A DNA stretch of 64,000 nt from Verrucomicrobiota bacterium JB023 (GTDB taxonomy: Bacteria; Verrucomicrobiota; Verrucomicrobiia; Verrucomicrobiales; Akkermansiaceae): contig JAUTCR010000075.1 of assembly GCA_030673895.1 (NCBI GenBank), positions 1 to 64,000 of the forward strand, in the 5' to 3' direction. The position numbers and the translations under genes are program-made. Positions within the stretch are counted from its first letter, which is position 1. Every line of letters starts with the position of its first letter. Shown here piece after piece: positions 7,635 through 24,681 of the stretch. The notes beneath the pieces are model-generated. The model did no database searches and was not told where the DNA came from. It saw nothing but the letters and a program-made list of their open reading frames with translations.

Positions 7635-7726
7635 AGAACGTCCGGTTTTGACCGACCTTACGGCTTTTTTCTTCAATGTGAAGTTGAGATTGCGTGCATT
7701 CCAATCAGGTTAATAGTGAATGCCCT

Positions 7727-10700
7727 ATGCGAGCTGGTGACGAGATTGTCCGGAACGCCCTTGATACGGGACTTCCGCCGCTGCCCGAGGAGGGCACGGT
7801 CGGCCCCATCGAGGAGCCGGCTCGTGGCTTTGTTTTGGCAGCGCTCGCCCGGCAAGGGCGACGGGTCTGGGTCTTGGAGAGTGCCCCACGCCAGCGGGCA
7901 CGATTGAAGGATGAGGTCGATACCTTCTCCACCCCCTGCCTCGACCTTCCCCATCCCCCGGACAAGGAGACCGAGGACCCCGAGCCGGCCGCCAATTGGC
8001 AGCTGGCCCTCCATCGCCTGCTCGATCTGCCAGCCGGAGTCATCCTTCTCTCTCCCGATGCCCTCGTCGCAGACGCCCCCTTGGCTAAGGAACTTACGGA
8101 ATCCGGCCTCCATCTGGAGCCCGACGACACCCTCGATCCGGCCGACCTCGAAAGGCAACTCGCCGACCACGACTTCGAGAAAGTCTCCAAAGTCCATGCC
8201 CGCTTCCAATTCGCCCGGCGCGGGGGCATCCTCGATTTCTTCCCTGCGAATAGCCCCCATCCCGTCCGACTCGAGTTTTTCGACGATTCCCTCGAATCCT
8301 TGCGAGAATTCGACATTCACTCGCAGACGACCATCCGGCGCCTCGATTCCCTCAATCTGCAACTCGAGTCCCCGGGCACGGCGACTACCCTGCGAGAGTG
8401 GATGGGCGAGGAGGATCTGCTCATCTCTCTTGACGAGACCGACTCCATCGCTGCGGCCCACCATTCATCCGCCGGCCCGACCCATCTCACTCTTTCGGAT
8501 GCGCCCACCTCTCACACCCTGCCCCTCCCCGCTCTTTCCCTGCCGTTTGGCAATCTTCACTCCGGCGACTTCATCCTCCACGACTTCCAGCGAGACGCGA
8601 TTCTGGATCAACTGGACACGTGGCTGACCGAGGGCTGGTCCATCCTCCTCGCGTCTCCCAATGAGGGCGAGCACGAGCGATTTCACGAGATCTCCAATCT
8701 TCGTTTCGACAAGCGGGACCGCATCCATCCATGGCACACTTGGCTGCCCCGCGGCTTCCGCCTTCCCGAGCAAAAGGTCGCCTTCGTCTCCCTTTCCGAA
8801 CTGTTCGGGCGCTTCAACAAGCCTCATCGGCTTAGCGAACTTGAGAAACAACGAGCGGCCTCCACTCGACTCGATCTGGAGGAGCTTCTTGAGAACGACC
8901 TGGTCATCCATGCCGAGTATGGCCTCGGCCAATTCGAAGGCGTCCAAGTCAACGAGGACGGCTTGGAGGAACTCATCCTCAAGTATCGCGACGGCGCCTC
9001 GCTCTCCGTGCCCCTCTCCCACGCCCACCTGGTCTCGCGCTACATTGGCACCGGAGGCTCCACTCCAGACCTTGCCAAACTCGGCTCGAACGCGTGGAAG
9101 AAGACCAAGGCGGAAGCCACGCAAGCGATCCGCGACTACGCCGCCCGTCTGCTCAAGGTCCAGGCTGAGCGCGAGAACTTGCCCGGCCACGCCCACCCGC
9201 CAGATAGCAAGTGGATGTGGGACTTTGAGAACGCCTTCCCCTATACAGAAACTCCGGATCAGCTGTCTGCCATCTCCGCGACCAAGGCGGACATGGAGGC
9301 CTCCCGCCCGATGGACCGTTTGATTTGCGGCGATGTCGGCTTTGGCAAAACCGAGGTTGCCATTCGGGCGGCGTTCAAGGCCGTGACTGGCGGCACCCAA
9401 GCTGCGATGCTTTGCCCCACCACCGTGCTGGCCGAGCAACACTTCCGCAATTTTTCCTCCCGGATGTCGGAGTTTCCCATCACGATTCGACTCCTCAATC
9501 GCTTCCGCACCCCCTCCGAAGTGCGGGAAACGTTGGCCGGACTAGCCGATGGCTCAGTCGATATCGTGATTGGCACCCACCGCTTGTTATCGAAGGACGT
9601 CTCCTTCAGCAACCTCGGGCTCGTCGTCGTCGACGAAGAACAACGCTTCGGTGTCAAACACAAGGAAGCGCTCAAGGAACGCTTCCGGCAAATTGACGTC
9701 CTCACCCTCTCGGCGACGCCCATCCCCCGCACCCTTTACTTCTCATTGATGGGAGCGCGCGACATGTCGACCATCGACACCCCGCCGCCCAACCGGAACC
9801 CCGTTAAGACCTCCATCTACCAGTATGATGAGCGGGTCATCCGCGACGCCGTCACCAACGAGCTCAACCGGGGCGGGCAAGTTTACTTTCTCCACAACCG
9901 GGTTGGCACCATCGAGCACGTTCGGGACAAGCTCCAAGAGCTTGTGCCGAAAGCCAAGATCGTGATCGGCCATGGCCAGATGGAGAAGGAGGAGCTGGAG
10001 ATCGTGATGCACAAGTTCGTGGAGGGAGAGGCTGATATTCTTCTCGCCACCACCATCATTGAGAGTGGCATTGATATCCCCAATGCCAATACCATCCTCA
10101 TTGACCGGGCGGACCGCTTTGGTCTGGCCGACCTTTACCAGCTTCGCGGCCGGGTGGGCCGCTCCGATCGCCAAGCGTACGCCCTACTCTTCCTTCCCCG
10201 CGACCTCGTCTCCGGGGGAGACTCGCGTAAGAGGCTCAACGCGATCCGCCAATACACCGCCTTGGGCTCAGGCTTCCGCATCGCGATGCGCGACTTGGAA
10301 ATTCGCGGAGCCGGCTCCCTTCTCGGCACCAAGCAGTCCGGCCACATGGCCGCGATTGGCTTCGATCTCTACTGCCAACTTCTCCGCCAGTCTGTCGAGG
10401 AGCTCCAAGGAAAGAAATCGGTCCGACCGGCAGACCTCGTGCTCCGCGCCGACATTATCTCCTTCACGGAGGGACGGCACGAGAAGCATCAGCTGCCCGC
10501 CTACTTACCGTCCGGCTACATCCCGGACGCCAAGGAACGTGTCGCCGCCTACCGTGCCCTTGCCACCCTTGCCTCGGAGGCGGAATTAAAGGCCGTGGAG
10601 ACGCAGTGGAGGGATCGCTATGGGCGACTCCCCTATCAGGCGAAGAATCTGCTTCTCACCACTCGCCTCCGCTTGGCTGGAGCCGATATCGGCGCGGACT

Positions 10701-10837
10701 TAATCGAGATCAAGCAGGGCCGCCTCATCATTCAAAAGAATGGTGGCTACCTCGCGGGTAGCACCTTCCCCCGGCTGAAGAAAAAGGGCCCGGGGGCCCA
10801 ATTGGAGGAAGCGATCTCCTTGCTCAACAATCTCTAA
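7727..10837 (+). CDS. mfd: Transcription-repair coupling factor
   Basis: A 1036-residue Mfd, which removes RNA polymerase stalled at DNA lesions and recruits UvrA. Domain order: a UvrB-like N-terminal region; a CarD/RID-type RNA-polymerase-binding domain (DLVIHAEYGLGQFEGVQ); an SF2 helicase/translocase with Walker A GDVGFGKT at 535-542 and DEEQRFGVKHKE from 636; motif VI region QLRGRVGRSDRQAYALL; then a C-terminal TRCF domain. It is about 110 residues shorter than the E. coli protein, mainly in the N-terminal part. I set the start at the ATG at 7727 (MRAGDEIVRNAL); a GTG at 7694 is also in frame. Confidence 0.96.
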   Translation: MRAGDEIVRNALDTGLPPLPEEGTVGPIEEPARGFVLAALARQGRRVWVLESAPRQRARLKDEVDTFSTPCLDLPHPPDKETEDPEPAANWQLALHRLLDLPAGVILLSPDALVADAPLAKELTESGLHLEPDDTLDPADLERQLADHDFEKVSKVHARFQFARRGGILDFFPANSPHPVRLEFFDDSLESLREFDIHSQTTIRRLDSLNLQLESPGTATTLREWMGEEDLLISLDETDSIAAAHHSSAGPTHLTLSDAPTSHTLPLPALSLPFGNLHSGDFILHDFQRDAILDQLDTWLTEGWSILLASPNEGEHERFHEISNLRFDKRDRIHPWHTWLPRGFRLPEQKVAFVSLSELFGRFNKPHRLSELEKQRAASTRLDLEELLENDLVIHAEYGLGQFEGVQVNEDGLEELILKYRDGASLSVPLSHAHLVSRYIGTGGSTPDLAKLGSNAWKKTKAEATQAIRDYAARLLKVQAERENLPGHAHPPDSKWMWDFENAFPYTETPDQLSAISATKADMEASRPMDRLICGDVGFGKTEVAIRAAFKAVTGGTQAAMLCPTTVLAEQHFRNFSSRMSEFPITIRLLNRFRTPSEVRETLAGLADGSVDIVIGTHRLLSKDVSFSNLGLVVVDEEQRFGVKHKEALKERFRQIDVLTLSATPIPRTLYFSLMGARDMSTIDTPPPNRNPVKTSIYQYDERVIRDAVTNELNRGGQVYFLHNRVGTIEHVRDKLQELVPKAKIVIGHGQMEKEELEIVMHKFVEGEADILLATTIIESGIDIPNANTILIDRADRFGLADLYQLRGRVGRSDRQAYALLFLPRDLVSGGDSRKRLNAIRQYTALGSGFRIAMRDLEIRGAGSLLGTKQSGHMAAIGFDLYCQLLRQSVEELQGKKSVRPADLVLRADIISFTEGRHEKHQLPAYLPSGYIPDAKERVAAYRALATLASEAELKAVETQWRDRYGRLPYQAKNLLLTTRLRLAGADIGADLIEIKQGRLIIQKNGGYLAGSTFPRLKKKGPGAQLEEAISLLNNL

Positions 10838-10874: not shown

Positions 10875-11330
10875 TCACTTCGGTGGAAGCTTCACTACCG
10901 TGAACCAGTAATTACCGAGCACCTCGATCACCTCACGAAACTTCGCGAAGCTCACCGGCTTGGTGACGTAGGCACTGCATCGCAGGCTATACATCTTCAG
11001 CACGTCCTCCTCATTGGCCGACGTCGTCAGAATAACAACCGGAAGGTGCTTCAGATTTTCATCCTGTGAGATCTCAGCCAAAACCTCCCTCCCGTCCATA
11101 ACGGGCATATTCAGGTCGAGCAAAATCAAGTCGGGCGTCTTCGCCTTGGAGAATTCGCCTTCCTTGCGCAAGTAAGCCAAGCAATCCTTACCATTCTCAA
11201 CATGGTTCAGGTTGACTCGGAAACGAGCATTCTCGAATCCCTTGCGGGTGATGAAGACGTCATCCTCATTGTCGTCTACCAAGAGGATCTCAGCCAGGTT
11301 ACTCTCATCTACTTCCATAATGTCCGTCAC
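10875..11330 (-). CDS. CheY/Rcp1-type single-domain response regulator
   Basis: A 151-residue receiver with no output domain, like the cyanobacterial Rcp1 partners of phytochromes. Acidic pocket D19/D20 (LLVDDNEDD), phosphoacceptor Asp72 in LILLDLNMPVMDG, Thr102/Thr103 and Lys124 (YVTKPVSF) are all present, so phosphorylation should work. Its start overlaps the stop of the upstream kinase gene by 4 bp (ATGA), so the kinase is the obvious partner. Output is unknown; such proteins act by binding other proteins or pass phosphate onward. Confidence 0.93.
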   Translation of the reverse strand: MTDIMEVDESNLAEILLVDDNEDDVFITRKGFENARFRVNLNHVENGKDCLAYLRKEGEFSKAKTPDLILLDLNMPVMDGREVLAEISQDENLKHLPVVILTTSANEEDVLKMYSLRCSAYVTKPVSFAKFREVIEVLGNYWFTVVKLPPK

Positions 11331-12571
11331 TCGTTGGCATTGCCTTCCGGCGCTGCGGGCGTTTTGTCTAAAGCCACCGGCTCACCCAAAGGAAGACTAA
11401 AATGGAAGTTGCTCCCTTTGCCTTCTTCCGAATCCAACCAAATCCGTCCATGGTGCCGCTGGACGATGCGGCGGCAGACCCCCAACCCAATTCCCGTCCC
11501 GGGATACTGCTCCTGGGTATGCAGCCGCCGAAAGATCTCGAAGACGCGCTCATGATACTCCGGCGCAATGCCGATGCCATTGTCGGAGACCGAGATCACC
11601 ATCTCTCCGTCCGCCTCCGCTGCTGAGACGTGGACGATAGGAGCTTCCTTGCCCCGGTATTTTAAGGCGTTGCCGATGAGATTCTGTAATAGCTGCGCGA
11701 GCTGGGCCGGGTCACCAGTTACCGTAGGCAGATCATCGCGACCCACGATTCCCCCACTATCGATGATCGATTGCTCAAGCAATTCCGTCACTCCGTCGCA
11801 AATCTGGTTTAAGTCCACCCGCTCGAAGGGGCGGCTCGATGACTCCACTCGAGAGAAAGCCAGGAGGTCGTCGATGAGATGTTTCATCCGTGCGCTCGCG
11901 GCCACCATCCGCTCCAAATAGAGGCGACCATCCTCGTCGAGCTGGCTACGATATTCATCATCGAGAAAGTGAGCGTAACCCGCGATGGCTCGCAGGGGAG
12001 TCTGCAAATCATGGGAGGCCACATAAGCGAATTGTTGCAGCTCAAGATTGCTCTCCTCCAACGCGCGGTTGGTTGCCGCCAGCTCGTTCGTCCGTTCGAT
12101 CACCCGCAGCTCCAACTCATCCTTCAGCCTCCGCTGGGCCAGCTCCGCCGCCTCTCGCTCGGCAACTTCCCGCTGCAGGCGTTCATTGATGGATGCCAGG
12201 CCGGGCAAGGCCATGGCCCGCGGAAGGATGGGGAAAAGACAGATGACCGTCACCCATGAGACAATGGCCGTGATCGCCTTGATCACCCCCGAGAACCGAT
12301 ACCAAGGCGTCCAGAAAATAAAGGCTTCCACCAGATGACCAAAACCACAAGAGAGGATGAACGCCACGAACAGCCAAAAGATCTTCAGGAATGGCAAATC
12401 CTTTCGCCGCAAAGCGAACCAACCCAACAGGAGAGGAATGGCAAAGTAGGCACCCGCAATCGAAAGGTCCGAGACGATGTGGAGGATGCCATGACCTGTC
12501 GTCCAGTTCCCACAATTCCAGCGTGCGGGGAAATCCGAGGTGTCAAAAAGCTTGGAAAAGAAATCGACCAT
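11327..12571 (-). CDS. Sensor histidine kinase with ethylene-receptor-like membrane domain
   Basis: A 414-residue hybrid of a three-helix membrane sensor and a histidine kinase. Residues 25-115 contain three transmembrane helices that align with the ethylene-binding domain of plant ETR1: D35, Y42, I45, P46, C75 and H79 correspond to ETR1 D25, Y32, I35, P36, C65 and H69, all with a constant offset of 10. C65 and H69 are the copper ligands in ETR1. A coiled coil (about 124-180) follows, then the H box with His187 in ASHDLQTPLR, an N box NLIGNALKYR, DNGIGIAP and GTGIGLGVCRRI. It is the first gene of a coupled pair with the response regulator. Such sensors are known in cyanobacteria and some other bacteria; ligand binding here is inference. 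Confidence 0.92.
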   Translation of the reverse strand: MVDFFSKLFDTSDFPARWNCGNWTTGHGILHIVSDLSIAGAYFAIPLLLGWFALRRKDLPFLKIFWLFVAFILSCGFGHLVEAFIFWTPWYRFSGVIKAITAIVSWVTVICLFPILPRAMALPGLASINERLQREVAEREAAELAQRRLKDELELRVIERTNELAATNRALEESNLELQQFAYVASHDLQTPLRAIAGYAHFLDDEYRSQLDEDGRLYLERMVAASARMKHLIDDLLAFSRVESSSRPFERVDLNQICDGVTELLEQSIIDSGGIVGRDDLPTVTGDPAQLAQLLQNLIGNALKYRGKEAPIVHVSAAEADGEMVISVSDNGIGIAPEYHERVFEIFRRLHTQEQYPGTGIGLGVCRRIVQRHHGRIWLDSEEGKGSNFHFSLPLGEPVALDKTPAAPEGNANE

Positions 12572-12646: not shown

Positions 12647-13951
12647 TTACTTCTTCTTGTCGAGGAGGTTTTCCTCCTGTTCCGAGGCGAGGGCACTTCG
12701 CACCTGCTTGTCGATGGTGTCATCGGCCGAAGTTTCATCCTCCGCTTCTTTCGCCAGGTGGCGTTGGGGCTTCTTCTTGTCGTTCTCTTGGACGGCTGAT
12801 TTTTCCTGCATGAGCACTCGGTAAATGGGCTCGGGCATCTCAACTCCATTGTCGTCAAAGGTGTCCTTCACCCGTCGGATGGCCTCGCTCTTCGCCTTGA
12901 GGAAGTCGCTCTCGGTCTGGTTGATCCAAGCGTAGAATCGCATGTTGACGGTGCTATCACCCAACTCTTCGATCACAATCAGCGGCGCTGGATCATCCAG
13001 AATGCCGTTCACCGATTGCAGAGTCTCCATCCCAAGCTGACGAACGGCAACCAGGTCCAACTCCACGGAAACACCAATGGCGAACTCAAATCTCCGCAGG
13101 GGGTTTCGCGAGAAATTCGTGAGAGGTGACGTCATGAGAAGGCTGTTAGGCAACCTCACATGATTGCCATCGAAGGTGATCAGAACCGTATCGCGCGAGG
13201 TCAGCCGGACCACCTTGCCGATATAATCTCCCACCTCGATGGCATCGCCCGTCTCGAAGGGGTTGCGCAAGCCGAGAAGGATACCGGCGAGGTAATTCTC
13301 AATGATATTCCGAAAGGCAAAGCCGAAGGCAATACCCGCGACGCCGGCGACACCGAGGATGGCTCCGGCAATCGCGGTCGCATCGAGAATCTCAAGAGCC
13401 ACCACCAGACCTGCGGCGGTAAAAGCCAGCCTCGCCACCCGGGCGGCCAGATTGGATGAAAGCTCCCTCATCCCCAAGGCCCGGAACCAATTCGCTCGCC
13501 CTCCTAAGAACCAGCCCGCAAGCAAGAACAAGGCGAAGATGCCAACGGAGAGAAGGATCAGCGGCAGCTTCCGAAGGAATTGGCTCCACAGCTCACTGGC
13601 TCGCTCGGAGGTTGGCCCCAATCGCTCCGAGATCGAGACGCTATCTTCCAGCCGATTCCGCACGTAAACCACTTCTTCTGTATGCTTGGCCAGAGTAACG
13701 GCCTCTTCGGCAACTTGAGAGTCCGGCACCATTCCGCTCAGCGTCACCACCCCGGCAGCCACCTCCACCTCGATCTCTTCCATTCCCTCAAGCTGGTCAA
13801 AAATCGAAGTCAGGCGCTGCTCCAGTTGCTCCTCGTTAGTCCCGGATTCAGCTTTGATAACGATATTCTCGGGGATATTTGCCTCATCCTTTTGGATCGG
13901 GTTTTGCGCAAAGACGCTAGGAAGAAAAATAATCAGAAGAAGCCACCTCAT
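12647..13951 (-). CDS. MscS-family channel with periplasmic BON domain
   Basis: A 434-residue small-conductance mechanosensitive channel, expected in the inner membrane. Domains in order: signal peptide 1-15 (cleavage after SVFA); a BON-type domain about 40-104 containing VEVAAGVVTLSGMVPD; a membrane helix 129-150; two more around 172-230 including the Gly/Ala-rich pore helix AIAGAILGVAGVAGIAFGFA and FRNIIENYLAGILL; the beta domain with DAIEVGDYIGKV and RLPNSLLMTSPLTNFSRN; the C-terminal alpha/beta domain; and a charged tail rich in Lys and Glu. The ATG at 13951 was chosen because it starts the signal peptide. BON fused to MscS is known from other bacteria. Confidence 0.92.
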   Translation of the reverse strand: MRWLLLIIFLPSVFAQNPIQKDEANIPENIVIKAESGTNEEQLEQRLTSIFDQLEGMEEIEVEVAAGVVTLSGMVPDSQVAEEAVTLAKHTEEVVYVRNRLEDSVSISERLGPTSERASELWSQFLRKLPLILLSVGIFALFLLAGWFLGGRANWFRALGMRELSSNLAARVARLAFTAAGLVVALEILDATAIAGAILGVAGVAGIAFGFAFRNIIENYLAGILLGLRNPFETGDAIEVGDYIGKVVRLTSRDTVLITFDGNHVRLPNSLLMTSPLTNFSRNPLRRFEFAIGVSVELDLVAVRQLGMETLQSVNGILDDPAPLIVIEELGDSTVNMRFYAWINQTESDFLKAKSEAIRRVKDTFDDNGVEMPEPIYRVLMQEKSAVQENDKKKPQRHLAKEAEDETSADDTIDKQVRSALASEQEENLLDKKK

Positions 13952-14227
13952 GCCCGCCTGCTCCGCAGAGGCTATTCCAAACGGCGAACAACCTCCCCAC
14001 TCTTGGATATCCTCCTTCCTTGCAATCGCCCGTAGGCATGCGTTGGCAAGCGCCTGTAAGAAGGCGAAGATCCTTCGCCGGGAAGATCTCGCTTTCTGCA
14101 CGAGCACGGCAGGTTTTCTCTAATGCAAAGTGCCCGCTTATCGCGCAGGTTCGCTCTTAGAAGAAGCTTCATTTCTTATCAGGCGGACGATCTCCCGCTC
14201 GGCATCCACCCTGCGAACAGTCATTCC

Positions 14228-15476: not shown

Positions 15477-16253
15477 GTGGCAAACGACTTTCGGAATGAC
15501 CTCTCTGAAGGGCGTCATCTCGATCGCCCCGCGTCCTCCCAGTCGATAGCCGTCGGCATCGACGCTTGCCGGGGCGGCTGGATAGCCGCGTCCGGCGAAG
15601 AGCCGGGCTTGCGCGTCTTTGGCTCCTTCGACTCGTTAGCCGACAGCTTTCCTGAGGGCTCAATCCTCATGGTCGACATCCCGATCGGCCTGCCCGATGG
15701 GGATTCAGCCGGACGCGAGTGTGACCGCTTGGCTCGGCAAGGTCTCGCTCCCCGACGCGGTAGTAGCGTCTTTCCAGCCCCCTTACGGGCCACGCTCGCT
15801 GCCGATTCCTACGAAGAGGCCTGCCACCTCAGCTCGCAGCTCTGCGGGAAAAAACTGAGCAAGCAAACTTTCAATATCTTGCCGAAGGTCAGGGAGGTGG
15901 ACACCTATCTGAGGGGGACAGCCCGCCACCGCGTGTGGGAATGCCACCCGGAGCTCGCCTTCTGCGGGCTCAATGGAGGCACTCCCCTGCTCCACTCAAA
16001 AAAGACCGACGAGGGAAAACAAGAGCGCCTCGATCTGCTCGCCCCGATTATCCCCGGCGTCCAGGACATCTACGCAAAGACTCTCGCGGGCATCCCGAGA
16101 CTCCAGGCCGCTGCTGATGACATCCTTGATGCCCTCGTTAACTTCAGCGTGGCTTCTGCCCCACCGGAGCGATGGAGAATCCTTCCCCCCACGCCGCCTG
16201 AAGATTTGTGCGGACTCCCCATGGGGATTCTCTTCGCGGATTACTCTCCTTGA
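15477..16253 (+). CDS. DUF429 family protein (RNase H-like fold)
   Basis: A 258-residue protein of the DUF429 family, predicted to have an RNase H-like nuclease fold but not characterised. Signature segments are VGIDACRGGWIAA, MVDIPIGLPDGD, GSSVFPAPLR, LSKQTFNILPKVREVD, VWECHPELAF and DDILDALVNF; the repeated acidic positions would form the metal site. It starts with GTG immediately after the stop of the HVA1-type gene (TAAGTG). The first ~22 residues have no family counterpart, so a slightly later start is possible. The 3' end overlaps the convergent channel gene by 13 bp. Confidence 0.9.
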   Translation: MANDFRNDLSEGRHLDRPASSQSIAVGIDACRGGWIAASGEEPGLRVFGSFDSLADSFPEGSILMVDIPIGLPDGDSAGRECDRLARQGLAPRRGSSVFPAPLRATLAADSYEEACHLSSQLCGKKLSKQTFNILPKVREVDTYLRGTARHRVWECHPELAFCGLNGGTPLLHSKKTDEGKQERLDLLAPIIPGVQDIYAKTLAGIPRLQAAADDILDALVNFSVASAPPERWRILPPTPPEDLCGLPMGILFADYSP

Positions 16254-17920
16254 TGCTCAAGAATGACGGCGCTGCCCGCTTCTTCCGCCGCCGCACTCGC
16301 CGAGTGCACCGTGACTTGGGTAAAGGGAATCACCCAACCGCGCTCATTGCAGACCTCCACGCAGAGGCGCTGGATAGCGCGCTTGATCTTTTCATAGCGC
16401 TCGGCCGCCCCTCCTTTGAAGTCAGCCAGGATATCGAAATCCAGCGAGGAGGCTCCAGCCGAGGCAAATTCCACATTGACCGAATTCATCAGCTCCCGCC
16501 CGCCCAGGAAATCAGCCAAGCCTTGGTCGATGGCTGCCTTAAAGACGGACACCGCCTCATCGGTCACAATCGCCTGATGCTCGTAATCGATACCGAAACG
16601 CACTTTCACGCGGAAATTATTCGAGAGGTTAACCGGCGCCATGCCTAGAAATTCCGGAGTCGGAAAAGTCTCCCGCGCCCCACCCAGTCGTAGGATCTGC
16701 ACGTATTCCGGCGTCTGCATCACCACCTTGCCCAAGCTCCCATTGATGAGCACCCAATCTTCCGCCTTGGTGGGAAACCAAGCTTCGCGGACATCATGCG
16801 GACGCGAGCGCAGCCCCGTTAGCCGCTTGAGCGAGACCCGGATCAAGCCCCCAGTGAGCTCCCCATTGCGCAGAACCGTGTAGAAGCCGATCGTGCCGAC
16901 CTCCCAGGGAACGCCCTCGAAGTTTAACCTTTCCCCCTTCCGAACAGGCCCGAGGTTCAGAAGCATTTTCGTCTGCTCCGTCACTCTCGGGATGGTGCTC
17001 TTGGCCGTCCATCCCAGCCCCGCCAGCATGACCACGAACAGAGTCAGCAGCAGCCAATCACCACTGAAGTAAAGGACGAGGAGAGCAGCCGAAGCAGCTG
17101 ACAAGGCGATAAGAACGAGAGCGCTCAGGTCAACCAGGCGCCAGGCAAAGGCACCTTTATTCACTTTGTCAAAAATGCGAAAATCCCCCACCCGGGCCCA
17201 TAGCCAACGTAAAAGAAGCCAAGTCACCACAGCGGCACCGATCGCCTTCAAAAGATTAAGCCCCCGGCCGCGGAAAAACTCGCTGAAGGCTCGACTGACC
17301 GGCCCCAGCACGGAACGACCTTCTTCCTCACGCTGCTCCAGCAGGAGCTCCAGTGCCTCCAGCTGGAGGTCGGCGTCCTCGAGGCGCTCCCGCCATGTTA
17401 TCCTCAGATCCTCCACTTGCTGAGCTGAGGGACTCTCCAAATCCCGAAACTGACCTAACGAGCTGAGCGCCTGCGTCGCCGTTTCCTTCTGCTCCTTGAG
17501 CCGTTCCCGCCGGGTGCGTAGCTCCTCTGTCTCGCGGGGTCTCTTGGTCAGCTCTTTGAGCTCTTCGATTCCTGGTCGGAGGATTTCCTTCACCTCGTCA
17601 GCCAAGTCCAGCTCACCGCCAGCCACGCCCGAGAAGTCTTGCTCGGCGACTCCAGTGGCCAACTCATTGAACTGAAACTTCAGCTCCTCAAGCCGGCTCG
17701 ATAACTCTTCCTCACGGTCCTTCAGCTCGTCGGCGGCCTCCTCGCCGGCGCCGTTTTGATCGGAGTTCTGCAGCTGCTCGCGGACGCTCCCGAGGTTTTC
17801 GCTGGTCTCGGCAATCACCTCACCCAGTCGGGTCAATCGCTCCGCGGTCTTCTGCTCGGAAGACTGGGCCAGCAGCGGGAAGCTACAAAAAAAGAGGAGG
17901 ACAAGGAGACGACCCAACAT
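16241..17920 (-). CDS. MscS-like mechanosensitive channel with long coiled-coil N-terminus
   Basis: A 559-residue membrane protein. A signal peptide (MLGRLLVLLFFCSFPLLA) is followed by about 180 residues of Glu/Leu-rich coiled coil (for example LKDREEELSSRLEELKFQF), probably periplasmic. Three to four membrane segments lie around residues 223-320. The MscS-type beta domain (VRKGERLNFEGVPWEVGTIG, then WVLINGSLGKVV) and a C-terminal alpha/beta domain follow. Resemblance to MscS is clear in the beta domain but weak in the pore helix, so it is a divergent member. It is the second channel gene near this operon and converges with DUF429. Confidence 0.82.
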   Translation of the reverse strand: MLGRLLVLLFFCSFPLLAQSSEQKTAERLTRLGEVIAETSENLGSVREQLQNSDQNGAGEEAADELKDREEELSSRLEELKFQFNELATGVAEQDFSGVAGGELDLADEVKEILRPGIEELKELTKRPRETEELRTRRERLKEQKETATQALSSLGQFRDLESPSAQQVEDLRITWRERLEDADLQLEALELLLEQREEEGRSVLGPVSRAFSEFFRGRGLNLLKAIGAAVVTWLLLRWLWARVGDFRIFDKVNKGAFAWRLVDLSALVLIALSAASAALLVLYFSGDWLLLTLFVVMLAGLGWTAKSTIPRVTEQTKMLLNLGPVRKGERLNFEGVPWEVGTIGFYTVLRNGELTGGLIRVSLKRLTGLRSRPHDVREAWFPTKAEDWVLINGSLGKVVMQTPEYVQILRLGGARETFPTPEFLGMAPVNLSNNFRVKVRFGIDYEHQAIVTDEAVSVFKAAIDQGLADFLGGRELMNSVNVEFASAGASSLDFDILADFKGGAAERYEKIKRAIQRLCVEVCNERGWVIPFTQVTVHSASAAAEEAGSAVILEHQGE

Positions 17921-18591: not shown

Positions 18592-21450
18592 GTGTCTCTG
18601 CAACAGGACGAACTTGGTCTCGACTTCTCGCCGCCGCCGACCCGCCACTTCCTCGGCTGGGAACAGCCCCTCCTCACCCTCGCCGTAGACTATCTGGCAA
18701 AGGGCTGGCAGCAGGGCCCGCTCGACCTGAGCGATACCACCCTACTCGTTCCCACTCGTAATGCTTCCCGCCGCCTGCGGGAAGCTCTCGCGCGGAAGGC
18801 TGCCGAGCGAAATACGGGAAGCCTCCCCCCTCAAATCGCCAACCCGGACGACTTCCTCACCGAAGCCTCCCCGGCCTCTCCCCTCGCCACCCGGCTCGAT
18901 CTCCTGCTCGCTTGGGTCGAGGTCTTGCAACAGACTCGTCTCGAAGACTACCCCCATCTTTTCCCCGTGGATCCTGGCGAGCGGGGCCTCTCCTGGGCGC
19001 TGAAAACCGCTCGCGATTTCACCAAGGTTCAATCTCTCCTCGGAGAAGCCGCCCGAACAGCGGGCTCCGTTTCCCGGCAATTCGAGGGCACCGACTATGA
19101 GCCGGAGCGTTGGGCGGAATTCGCCCAGCTGGAGGACGAGACTTATCGACTCCTCCGCTCGCAAGGCAAGCTGCCGCGCGCTCTCTCGCGGCAGGAGGCC
19201 GTCGAATCCTTCCAACTCCCGCCGGAGTGCAAGCGACTCATCGTCATCGGTGTCGTCGATCCTCCCCCTGCTCTGGAGAAAGTACTCACCCGCCTCGCCG
19301 GGCAGGTCCCGACCGAGATTCTCATCAATGCGCCCGCTTCCTTGGCCGATCTCTTCGACGCCTTGGGGCGGCCAACGGAGGATTGGACGGAGCGCCCGCT
19401 ACATGTTCCCGCCGCACAGATTCATCCGACCGCTCATCCCGAGGCCCAGGGCAGGTTCGTTCACCAGCGGATGAGTCTCCATCCCCAGCCGGAGGCAGTG
19501 GTCTCGCTCGGCGTCCCCGATACCGAGGTCATCGCGCCCCTGCGGAAGTCTCTTGCCGATGCCGGCATCCAGACCTTCGACCCGGCTGGCACCCCGCTTG
19601 CCAATCAGGGCTTCTGCCATTTCCTGCGCACTTTCCAAGAGGTTCTCGCCACCCGCTCCTACCATTCCTTCCGCGAGCTTCTCCGCAGTCCGGGCGTCGC
19701 CGAAGCAGCAGGAAGACACGAGATTCCGGAGGGAGGCCAGGCCTTCTCCTCTGCGCGAGTGCTCATTCAGTTCGACCGCTTCCACGAGATGCATCTGCCG
19801 CTCACCATCGATGACGCCTTCCCGCTCCTCGAGCATCTCGCTAGCGGCCTGGACAAGGCGGTGCTCACCCGGGGCCTTCGCTGGATCCGCTCGTGGCTCA
19901 ATCAGGTCGAGCGCTCACCGCTCGCGGAAGGTTTGACCTCCTTTCTCACCGAAGTCTATGAGCAGGCCTTTCGCCGGCCGGATGAAGACTTCACCGCAGT
20001 GGTTGATCTCCTGCACAAAGTTCTCGACGACTTCATCCATCCTGCGCTCCCCCAGCTCGCCTTGGACGAACAACTGCAGCTCTTTCTTTCTCTTCTCGAA
20101 GAACAAACGCTCACAGCCAAACGCCCGCCCCGGGCCATCGACCTGCCGGGGTGGCTGGAACTCCCTTGGGAAGACGCGCCGCATCTGCTCATCACCGGCT
20201 TCAATGACGGGCTCGTCCCGGAGACCATCCAGGCTCATCCTTGGCTACCCGATCATGCCCGCCGGGCCCTGGGCCTCCGTCATAATGCAACTCGCCACGC
20301 CCGCGATGCCTATCTCCTCGCGGCCCTGATGGCCTCGAGAAAGGAAGGAGGACACCTCGACTTAATCTTCGGACGCACCAATGCTTCCGGCGACCCCCTC
20401 CGCCCTTCCCGTCTCCTGCTGGCTCTCCCTGAGGATGAGCTTGCGGAACGAGTGGAGTTCCTTTTCCGCGAGGACCCTCCTTCCCAAATGTCAGTTCCCC
20501 AGACCGTCGGCTGGCAACTCACCCCTCCCGCTCCTACCGACAACATCCTCGAGCGCCTGAGTGTGACCTCGTTCTCCGCCTACCTCGCCTGCCCCTTCCG
20601 CTTCTATCTCAGCCATGTCCTCAAGATGCGCGAACCCCAGGTGGACCTGATGGAAATGAACGCGCCCGCTTTCGGAGAATTTGCCCACCAAGTTCTCGAA
20701 GACTTCGCCAAGACCCCCGCCGCCAAATCTTCCGAGCCCGCGCAAATCACCGAATGCTTCCACGATCTTCTCACGGATAACCTTCAGCGCCGCTTTGGCT
20801 CCAACCGCGCCCTCCCCCTTCTCATTCAAGAGGAATCCCTCCGCCAGCGACTCGCTTGGTGGGCTCGTATCGAGGCCAGCCAACGGAACGAAGGCTGGTC
20901 CATCCTCGAGGCGGAAACCTCGCTGAGCGGGAACGACTCCCCCTTTACGATCGACGGCATGCGCATTACCGGACGGATCGATCGGATCGAGCAACATCCC
21001 GATGAGGGCATCCGCATCCTCGATTTCAAAACCTCGCAGAAGCCGGTTGAACCCGATACTGCTCACCTCGTTGGCTCCCGCTCGCTCGACGACTATCCCG
21101 ATTGGCGCATCGCCGCCCTAGCAAGGCCAAAGCTCTGGTCAAATCTTCAGCTCCCGCTTTATCTCCTCGCGATGGAGAAACGCTACCCCGAGCAGCGCCT
21201 CACCACTGGCTACATCAATCTCCCACCGACCCAGAAGGAGACAGGATTGAAGCTCTGGGACGAGCTTGACGAAGAGCTTCTCGCCTCCGCTGAGGATTGC
21301 GTCCGGGGAGTCATCGCGCAGATAAAGAAGCAAGTCTTCTGGCCACCTGCGGAGAAGCCTCGCTACGATGACTACCGTAGCATCCTTCTCGGCAATCCTG
21401 AGGAGGCAGTCGATCCGGTCAATCTAACTCCCTCCCCTACCCAGCCTTAA
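18592..21450 (+). CDS. AddB-like nuclease/inactivated helicase subunit
   Basis: A 952-residue protein resembling the AddB/RexB side of double-strand-break-processing helicase-nucleases. The N-terminal region is UvrD-like but without an intact Walker A motif (TTLLVPTRNASRRLREAL). The C-terminus is a PD-(D/E)XK nuclease: SVTSFSAYLACPFRFYL, GEFAHQVLEDF, GRIDRIE, ILDFKTSQ (Asp and Lys) and QLPLYLLAM. The four cysteines that hold an iron-sulfur cluster in Bacillus AddB are not there; the corresponding end reads KPRYDDYRSILLG. The start is a GTG. The AddA-like gene follows after 18 bp, so the two probably form one complex. Confidence 0.88.
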   Translation: MSLQQDELGLDFSPPPTRHFLGWEQPLLTLAVDYLAKGWQQGPLDLSDTTLLVPTRNASRRLREALARKAAERNTGSLPPQIANPDDFLTEASPASPLATRLDLLLAWVEVLQQTRLEDYPHLFPVDPGERGLSWALKTARDFTKVQSLLGEAARTAGSVSRQFEGTDYEPERWAEFAQLEDETYRLLRSQGKLPRALSRQEAVESFQLPPECKRLIVIGVVDPPPALEKVLTRLAGQVPTEILINAPASLADLFDALGRPTEDWTERPLHVPAAQIHPTAHPEAQGRFVHQRMSLHPQPEAVVSLGVPDTEVIAPLRKSLADAGIQTFDPAGTPLANQGFCHFLRTFQEVLATRSYHSFRELLRSPGVAEAAGRHEIPEGGQAFSSARVLIQFDRFHEMHLPLTIDDAFPLLEHLASGLDKAVLTRGLRWIRSWLNQVERSPLAEGLTSFLTEVYEQAFRRPDEDFTAVVDLLHKVLDDFIHPALPQLALDEQLQLFLSLLEEQTLTAKRPPRAIDLPGWLELPWEDAPHLLITGFNDGLVPETIQAHPWLPDHARRALGLRHNATRHARDAYLLAALMASRKEGGHLDLIFGRTNASGDPLRPSRLLLALPEDELAERVEFLFREDPPSQMSVPQTVGWQLTPPAPTDNILERLSVTSFSAYLACPFRFYLSHVLKMREPQVDLMEMNAPAFGEFAHQVLEDFAKTPAAKSSEPAQITECFHDLLTDNLQRRFGSNRALPLLIQEESLRQRLAWWARIEASQRNEGWSILEAETSLSGNDSPFTIDGMRITGRIDRIEQHPDEGIRILDFKTSQKPVEPDTAHLVGSRSLDDYPDWRIAALARPKLWSNLQLPLYLLAMEKRYPEQRLTTGYINLPPTQKETGLKLWDELDEELLASAEDCVRGVIAQIKKQVFWPPAEKPRYDDYRSILLGNPEEAVDPVNLTPSPTQP

Positions 21451-21468
21451 CCCCCCACCTTCCTCGCC

Positions 21469-24400
21469 ATGACCAACGAACTCATTCTCGCCTCCGCCGG
21501 CTCGGGTAAGACCTATCAGCTAACCAATCGCTACCTCGCCCTGATGGCCCGACGCTTGCGGGAAGGCAAAGAGCCCGCTCCGGAGAACATCATCGCGCTC
21601 ACCTTCACCCGCAAGGCCGCCGGAGAATTCTTTGAAGAGATTCTCAAGAAGCTCGCCAAGGCCTCCCGCTCCGAACAAGCCGCCGCAGCCATCGCCGGAA
21701 ATCCCGATGACCGGGAGAATACTCTTTATCACGAACTCAAGGATCTAACCCCGGCCGACTACCAATCCTTGCTCGCCAGCTTCGTCAAGAGCAGCCCCCG
21801 CCTCTTCCTAGGCACGCTTGACTCCTTCTTTTCTTCCATCGTCCGCAGCTACCCTGCGGAGCTCGGACTCACTGGTGATTTCGATATTCTCGACGAACAT
21901 CAGCAGACGCTGACCCGCCAGAATCTCCTCCGCGACGTCTTCACTCAAGCCGACAACGAGGAGAGCCGGGAGCAGCTCATCCAAGCCTTTCTCCTCACCG
22001 CCGCAGGCAAGGAAGAGGCAACTGTAGCCCGTCATCTTGACCAGTTTATCACCGACCATCAGGAACTCCTGCACAGCGCGGGTAAGAAGGGCGTCTGGGG
22101 GCAAGTGAAGACCATCTGGCCACAAGGCCCCTCCTGGGCCGCAAAGCAGGGCTGCTATGAGGAGGACTTCGATGAGCTCTTCGCCTCCTTCGGCGACACT
22201 CTGACGCCCAAGCAAAGGGAGACCTGGGAGGAATTCCGGGACCAGCTCCCTGCCCACCATCCCGGCACCCCCCTCAAGGATCGCCCCAAGACGCTCCTTC
22301 CCAAGATCCGTGCAGTCTGGAGCGACATCTTGAATGGAGAAGCCTCCATCACGGTGAATCGCAAACAAGTGCTTGGTGCCGACTCCTGCGCAGCCCTGGT
22401 CCGAATCATCTCCCGCTTCCTCAAAGCCGAGTTCGAGGTCCGCTTGGTCCGTACCCAGGGCATCTGGAGCATCCTCAATCTCTACGAAAAAACCTACAAC
22501 GCCCGCGTCCGCCAGCAGGGCCACCTCACCTTCGCCGACCTTCCCCTCCTCCTCGCCGGCAGCACAAGCCGGCAAGCCCCCGTCCTCACCCAGCGAGAGG
22601 GAGACGACGAGCGCCTGCGCATCGACTACCGGCTCGATGCCAAGTATTTTCACTGGCTGTTAGACGAGTTTCAGGACACCTCCTGGCAGCAGTGGAGCGC
22701 CATCTCCAACCTGGTGGATGAGGTCCTGCAGGACGATACCCAGGAGCGCTCCCTCTTCATGGTCGGCGATACCAAGCAAGCCATCTACGCATGGCGCGGA
22801 GGAGACTCCCGACTCTTCAACGACATCCACCGTCAATACAAGCACACGCTAAAGGAGCGTGGACTGAACGTCTCCTGGCGCTCGAGCCCGGCGGTCATCG
22901 AGCCCGTCAATCGCATCTTTGGCGACCGTTCTGCGCTCGGTCGGGTCGGCCTCTCACCCCGCGTTGTTGAGCGTTGGAATTGGCCAACCCACCAGGTTGC
23001 GGCACCTCATCAACAGCGTGCCGGATTCACCGCCTACTATCACCCGGAAAAGTCGATCGAGAAACCTGAAAAGGAGGACCTCCACCGCATTGTTCTCGCG
23101 ATATTGGAAGAAGCCCGACCAGTCGAACGTGGCCTGAGCTGCGCCATCCTCGTGCAACAAAACAAAGACGCGATCCCTCTCGTCGACTACATCCGGCAGC
23201 ACTCCGACATCCCCATCGTCTCGGAGTCGGACAGCTCCATCATCACAGACAATCCCATCACCCTCGCCTTCCTTTCCCTCTTCCGTCTGGCGGCCCACCC
23301 TCATGATGACTTTGCACTTGGTCATCTCCACCTCACCCCGCTCCGCGCCCTGCTGGGGGACCGCTCTCCCGGCTCAGTGGGAGCCGACGTCCGGGCGGGG
23401 ATTCATTACGATGGCTTCGAGACCACCTTACGCCGATGGGTTGAGGCAGCCGGAGAAGCCAACCTTTCTTTCGACCCCTTCTCACGTCAACGCATTGAGC
23501 AATTTCTGTTAGCAGCACGTCAGTTTGACAGCACGGGGGAACGCTCCCTGGACCGCTTCCTCGCCTTCGCGGAATCCTATACCCTGCGCGAGGAGAGTAG
23601 CCGGGCCACGGTGCAAGTGATGACCGTCCACAAGTCGAAGGGCCTCACCTTCGACATGGTCATTCTACCCGAACTGAAGGGCAAGGCCCTCACCTTCCCC
23701 CGCGGCAATGGTCTCGCCATCAAGAGAGATCCTGTCTCGCGCCACGTCCAGTGGGTCCTCGATCAGCCAAGCCGCGACATCGCCGAACTCGATCCTGTCT
23801 TTCAGCAGTTGCGCCAGGAGAATGAAGATGACGCCGCCTACGAACAACTTTGCAAATTCTACGTCGCCCTCACTCGCGCCAAATATGCCAATTATCTGGT
23901 CAGCACCTCTTACTCTGGAAGTTCGCAAAACTTTCTCAAGCTACTCAACGAGACGCTTTGCCAGGGTGAAGCTGAGGAATCCCGTGTCGGAGACCTTGAG
24001 GTCCAGCTCGCCTTCGCCGAGGGCCAGGCCCAGTGGTGGAACGAGCTCAATCTCTCTGCCCCGGCAGAGCCCGAGGCTCCCCCTCGCGATCCTGTCCCGA
24101 CGTTGGCGGGACGCCCCCGCCTGCCGCGGCGCACCCCCTCCGATCATGGCGAACAAGCCGTGCCACCTTCCCGGCTTTTTTCCCGCAAGGACAATCGTGC
24201 CCGCGAACTAGGCAATGAGGTTCATGACCTTTTTGAGAGCATCGACTGGTTCGTTCCGGGAAAGCCCCCCGCCTTGACCTCAACCTCATCAGAGGCCCTG
24301 GCGCATCTCCAGGCCGTCCTGTCCGACCCCGCCTGCCAAGAGGCTCTGGCGAAGCCCGCGCAGCCCGCCCGCCTCTGGCGCGAACAGAATTTCGAGCTTC

Positions 24401-24681
24401 TCCTCGATGGCCACTGGGTATCCGGCACCATTGATCGCGCTACTATTCTACTGGATGAGCAAGATCAGCCCGTCGCTGCCCGGATCATTGACTATAAGAC
24501 GGACAAAGTCGCCAACGAAGCCGAGGCCCTCATGCGCTCCGAGCACTATCGCTCCCAGCTCGCCATTTATCGCCGCGCCTGCGCCCTCCTCCTGGGCATC
24601 GATGAGGACACGATCACAACCGCGCTCATCTTCACCCGCCTTCCACTCTTCCTTGAGATTGAGCTTTCCGACTCACCTTGA
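21469..24681 (+). CDS. AddA-like UvrD/Rep helicase-nuclease subunit
   Basis: A 1070-residue SF1A helicase with a C-terminal nuclease, the active motor partner of the preceding AddB-like protein in repair of double-strand breaks by end resection. Walker A is ASAGSGKTYQL at residues 8-18; IALTFTRKAAGE is motif Ia; LLDEFQDTSWQQW holds Walker B; MVGDTKQAIYAWRGGDSRLF is motif III; VQVMTVHKSKGLTFDMVILPE and LYVALTRA-type (FYVALTRAKYANYLV) are motifs V and VI. The PD-(D/E)XK nuclease shows GNEVHDLFESIDW, GTIDRATI, RIIDYKTDKV and YRSQLAIYRRA. Confidence 0.94.
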   Translation: MTNELILASAGSGKTYQLTNRYLALMARRLREGKEPAPENIIALTFTRKAAGEFFEEILKKLAKASRSEQAAAAIAGNPDDRENTLYHELKDLTPADYQSLLASFVKSSPRLFLGTLDSFFSSIVRSYPAELGLTGDFDILDEHQQTLTRQNLLRDVFTQADNEESREQLIQAFLLTAAGKEEATVARHLDQFITDHQELLHSAGKKGVWGQVKTIWPQGPSWAAKQGCYEEDFDELFASFGDTLTPKQRETWEEFRDQLPAHHPGTPLKDRPKTLLPKIRAVWSDILNGEASITVNRKQVLGADSCAALVRIISRFLKAEFEVRLVRTQGIWSILNLYEKTYNARVRQQGHLTFADLPLLLAGSTSRQAPVLTQREGDDERLRIDYRLDAKYFHWLLDEFQDTSWQQWSAISNLVDEVLQDDTQERSLFMVGDTKQAIYAWRGGDSRLFNDIHRQYKHTLKERGLNVSWRSSPAVIEPVNRIFGDRSALGRVGLSPRVVERWNWPTHQVAAPHQQRAGFTAYYHPEKSIEKPEKEDLHRIVLAILEEARPVERGLSCAILVQQNKDAIPLVDYIRQHSDIPIVSESDSSIITDNPITLAFLSLFRLAAHPHDDFALGHLHLTPLRALLGDRSPGSVGADVRAGIHYDGFETTLRRWVEAAGEANLSFDPFSRQRIEQFLLAARQFDSTGERSLDRFLAFAESYTLREESSRATVQVMTVHKSKGLTFDMVILPELKGKALTFPRGNGLAIKRDPVSRHVQWVLDQPSRDIAELDPVFQQLRQENEDDAAYEQLCKFYVALTRAKYANYLVSTSYSGSSQNFLKLLNETLCQGEAEESRVGDLEVQLAFAEGQAQWWNELNLSAPAEPEAPPRDPVPTLAGRPRLPRRTPSDHGEQAVPPSRLFSRKDNRARELGNEVHDLFESIDWFVPGKPPALTSTSSEALAHLQAVLSDPACQEALAKPAQPARLWREQNFELLLDGHWVSGTIDRATILLDEQDQPVAARIIDYKTDKVANEAEALMRSEHYRSQLAIYRRACALLLGIDEDTITTALIFTRLPLFLEIELSDSP

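Follow-up and report, generated by a model that had tools for sequence, protein, structure and literature searches.

A compact ETR1-type histidine kinase and its single-domain response regulator form a probable ethylene-sensing pair in Verrucomicrobiota bacterium JB023

The stretch of DNA analysed here (the window) comprises the first 64,000 nucleotides of contig JAUTCR010000075.1 of Verrucomicrobiota bacterium JB023. At 11327..12571, its minus strand holds a genuine open reading frame with an ATG start codon for a sensor histidine kinase of the ethylene-receptor type (414 aa, assigned by Pfam searches and a residue check). A single-domain response regulator of 151 aa follows on the same strand at 10875..11330, and its GTG start codon overlaps the TGA stop codon of the kinase by four nucleotides (GTGA). 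The kinase gene is flanked by the gene of an MscS-type channel with a BON domain just upstream (12647-14107, minus strand) and, beyond the regulator, by the convergent mfd (7694-10837), neither of which hints at its function; promoter and terminator scans stayed at chance level. A second large membrane protein, encoded at 16241-17920 (minus strand), is MscS-like by eye and has no Pfam match at 1e-8, and the adjacent genes for a PD-(D/E)XK nuclease protein and a UvrD-type helicase at 18592-24681 (plus strand) have the appearance of an AddAB-type pair. Contamination of the bin is unlikely, as the neighbouring Mfd is closest to that of a genome of the same family (55%), followed by those of named Verrucomicrobiales genomes, which also backs the verrucomicrobial origin assumed in the preliminary description.

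The kinase is built from an ETR1_N domain (residues 1-122), a helical linker (123-177), a HisKA domain (178-244) and a HATPase_c domain (286-396). The preliminary description of this locus had proposed an ETR1-like, three-helix membrane domain joined to an intact kinase, and both parts of this proposal are borne out. Residues 28-122 (12206..12490, minus strand) match the ETR1_N family (PF25487) at E = 6.2e-34, and their 116.6 bits exceed the cut-off of 27 by so much that the residue pattern described below is not a matter of chance. They are preceded by an N-terminal cap (residues 1-27; 12491..12571, minus strand) with the signature RWxCGxW, present as RWNCGNW at residues 17-23. The catalytic module is recognized with E-values of 4.5e-17 (HisKA) and 1.6e-29 (HATPase_c), and its motifs are intact: H187 lies in SHDLQTPL and is followed by NLIGNALKY, DNGIG and GTGIGLG. 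Pfam finds neither a GAF nor a PAS domain in the protein, nor any other input domain besides ETR1_N, of which the host genome has a single copy.

The same description had listed six residues as counterparts of functionally important positions in the plant ethylene receptor ETR1. All six lie where it placed them, with D35, Y42, I45, P46, C75 and H79 corresponding to D25, Y32, I35, P36, C65 and H69 of ETR1. In our alignment I72 corresponds to ETR1 I62, which completes the set of seven residues required in ETR1 (D35, Y42, I45, P46, I72, C75 and H79), and the output lysine is kept as well (K98, corresponding to ETR1 K91). Beyond the copper-site positions, the residues reported as required in a mutagenesis of ETR1 by Wang and colleagues in 2006 are Y32, I35, P36 and I62. 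Ethylene binding in ETR1 requires seven residues (PMC11819568), and its copper site consists of D25, C65 and H69 (PMC12643061). For AtETR1 and the bacterial receptor AzoEtr1, the equivalences D25/D35, C65/C75, H69/H79 and K91/K98 have been published (PMC11819568).

An AlphaFold2 model of the domain, computed from an alignment of 11 sequences, has three long helices (25-55, 62-84 and 91-120) at a mean pLDDT of 89.1. D35 and Y42 are located within helix 1, while C75 and H79 sit on one face of helix 2 in i and i+4 positions, that is, one turn apart in a single helix predicted with high confidence (pLDDT about 93-95); a prediction placing these two residues apart, which the preliminary description had named as refuting its proposal, was thus not obtained. 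A search of the PDB with the sequence of the ETR1_N domain alone gave no match even at E = 10, and Foldseek found no significant match to the predicted domain in the PDB, so that there is no solved ethylene-binding domain for superposition.

The coupled single-domain regulator that had been proposed is likewise present, with Response_reg as its only Pfam domain. It resembles RcpA (1k68, 6.6e-34) and Rcp1 (1jlk, 3.9e-29) over residues 8-149, its top match being an unnamed receiver protein (5te9), and it has acidic residues at D19/D20, a lysine at K124 and D72 as the expected phosphoacceptor. The kinase core in turn resembles those of bacteriophytochrome kinases (8avv, 5e-39). Since RcpA and Rcp1 are regulators of phytochrome kinases, the two proteins look like a matched working pair. 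Other ETR1_N kinases frequently have a receiver, either single and adjacent or fused, and in three relatives from the same family (L011, L012 and L015) no receiver was found beside the kinase within the flanking stretch covered. As the regulator has no DNA-binding domain, its output must pass via another protein.

ETR1_N domains are patchily distributed, yet common. They were found in 19 of 289 sampled genomes of Verrucomicrobiota, 25 of 246 of Planctomycetota, 16 of 247 of Bacteroidota and 18 of 249 of Pseudomonadota, which amounts to 6-10% per phylum, with each count including one genome known beforehand as positive. Fourteen control genomes yielded no such domain, and a scan of viral contigs for relatives yielded none. 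Of 106 aligned domains, 93 have D, Y, C and H together and 76 have the full set of seven. A few members are degenerate and lack the copper ligands, namely L019 (1426-1836, plus strand), L020 and L087; in L019, the positions of D, Y, C and H are occupied by N, A, S and S, and a receiver lies in the same frame. Some ETR1_N proteins must therefore function without a copper site.

Two forms of the N-terminal cap can be distinguished. PHGxC is found in Pseudomonadota, cyanobacteria and some Bacteroidota and PVC members, whereas RWxCGxW is found in PVC bacteria and some Bacteroidota, the JB023 kinase among them. A tree computed without the cap columns separates the two along a branch with an SH-aLRT support of 97%, such that one change accounts for both forms; the tree rests on 97 columns, and the branching inside each lineage is not settled. 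Within the RWxCGxW lineage (n = 42), C20, Y42, C75 and H79 are conserved in all members and D35, I45, P46 and I72 in 98%, and D, Y, C and H are jointly kept in 41 of 42. This conservation of ligands and non-ligand residues alike indicates constraint on the binding site in its entirety, and not on the copper ligands alone. C20 is invariant in both lineages, and near it lies residue 17 (12521-12523), which is always histidine in the PHG lineage and always arginine in the RW lineage. The H-x-x-C pair just ahead of helix 1 could represent an extra metal site without counterpart in the RW lineage. We found no paper on such receptors in Verrucomicrobia, Planctomycetes or Bacteroidetes, and no report of an ethylene-binding test on any RWxCGxW member, in a literature coverage that was incomplete and does not prove their absence.

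With regard to copper supply, the idea that the host is devoid of a copper ATPase was dropped, because its genome (G000) encodes a single HMA-containing P1B-type ATPase with a CPC motif (contig C5:343189-345258, L108), CcoI/FixI-like by eye. This protein scores 200.8 bits against the copper ATPase model, under the cut-off of 397 bits, so that its metal is not settled and it is a candidate, and possible, copper source only.

Taken together, we consider it likely that the 414-aa kinase serves as an ethylene receptor dependent on Cu(I), with control over its kinase module and the Rcp1-type regulator. The membrane domain would act as a three-helix dimer and hold Cu(I) via C75 and H79 of helix 2, with D35 of helix 1 positioning or sharing the copper site, at which ethylene would be bound. 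Binding may alter the helix bundle and, through the short helical linker, act directly on the HisKA/HATPase_c core, changing the autophosphorylation of H187 in a direction that we can only infer. The phosphoryl group would presumably pass to D72 of the putatively co-transcribed regulator, which may work through protein contact and not through DNA binding, on a downstream process that we likewise infer. Some observations count against an ethylene receptor: identity to AzoEtr1, a proven binder, is just 42%, the cap is unlike that of the proven type (R17/W18 compared with H17 and mostly G18 in the PHG type), a genome of the same genus (G238) has no ETR1_N copy, so that the function is dispensable, and the P1B-type ATPase falls short of the copper ATPase cut-off.

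It is conceivable, if rather unlikely, that the RWxCGxW lineage as a whole forms its own branch among gas receptors that work with copper, possibly with a preference for a ligand other than ethylene, and that it retained the copper site as its cap diverged. We likewise find it improbable that the JB023 domain holds Cu(I) but senses copper availability, carbon monoxide or another small alkene or alkyne, its ETR1-like residues then reflecting the copper site. The ETR1 site does accept other alkenes, and silver can stand in for copper. Moreover, the PHG and RW lineages have consistently different caps, and the copper site, as defined for ETR1 (PMC12643061), is among the most strictly conserved residues of the RW lineage (n = 42). 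However, I45, P46 and I72 are conserved there to 98%; none of the three is a copper ligand, yet ETR1 needs the corresponding residues to bind ethylene. Furthermore, ethylene arises from the photochemistry of dissolved organic matter and from many organisms (PMC6682694), so that a plant host is not required.

An ethylene receptor is also favoured over the notion that the membrane domain is a relic, a mere anchor for a kinase that takes its input from elsewhere. The few family members without the site illustrate that such losses do occur, but the JB023 copy has all seven residues, D, Y, C and H persist in nearly all members of its lineage, and the kinase has no second input domain, which makes this reading very improbable. 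Very improbable, too, is a redox or peroxide sensor in which C75 or C20 is oxidized with no ligand on copper: although both cysteines occur in every RWxCGxW member and a role in peroxide responses has been ascribed to ETR1 C65, such a sensor would have no need to keep H79, D35, Y42, I45, P46 and I72 alongside C75. The description of ETR1 as a disulfide-linked dimer (Schaller 1995, as cited in PMC12643061) also counts on its side.

Demonstrated bacterial ethylene receptors come from cyanobacteria and Azospirillum, and discussion of them usually centres on association with plants. The presence in Verrucomicrobiota of a complete, minimal receptor, whose lineage also extends through Planctomycetota and Bacteroidota, points to ethylene sensing as a possibly general trait of bacteria, independent of plants. 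With 414 residues, no GAF or PAS domain and a ready partner, the kinase would also be handy for reconstituting ethylene-to-kinase signalling. At the same time, the preliminary description overstated the case in presenting a verrucomicrobial receptor with a coupled regulator as unusual, given the occurrence of the domain elsewhere in the phylum and the published layout of AzoEtr1/AzoRR-etr1 (PMC11819568). The JB023 kinase adds a new, compact receptor to a type already known from bacteria, within which the RW lineage is the unexplored part.

The closest point of reference is AzoEtr1 of Azospirillum brasilense Sp7 (plasmid ABSP7_p1, L033). A yeast-expressed fragment of residues 1-130 binds ethylene, and A. 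brasilense with a disrupted AzoEtr1 gene shows no, or almost no, ethylene binding (PMC11819568). The JB023 domain aligns with it without gaps over residues 9-123 (48/115 identical), with D35, C75, H79 and K98 at identical numbers, and, as published for AzoEtr1 (PMC11819568), the gene of the JB023 histidine kinase overlaps that of a single-domain response regulator coming directly after it. By contrast, AzoEtr1 has 525 aa, a PAS domain and a PHGxC cap, whereas the JB023 kinase lacks a PAS domain and has an RWxCGxW cap, and AzoRR-etr1 (135 aa) is, by eye, not Rcp1-like. The same binding residues are found in SynEtr1 of Synechocystis PCC 6803, another bacterial receptor of the ETR1 type (PMC11819568, PMC6682694), but this protein also senses light, while Pfam finds no photosensory domain in the JB023 kinase. 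Plant ETR1 shares the ETR1_N domain and all seven ethylene-binding residues, yet it resides in the endoplasmic reticulum and has GAF and receiver domains, whereas in JB023 the membrane domain leads straight into the kinase and the regulator is a separate protein. Finally, pairs of the Cph1-Rcp1 type are alike in the sequence of their kinase core and single-domain regulator, but the JB023 kinase is free of chromophore-binding domains and has ETR1_N as its input.
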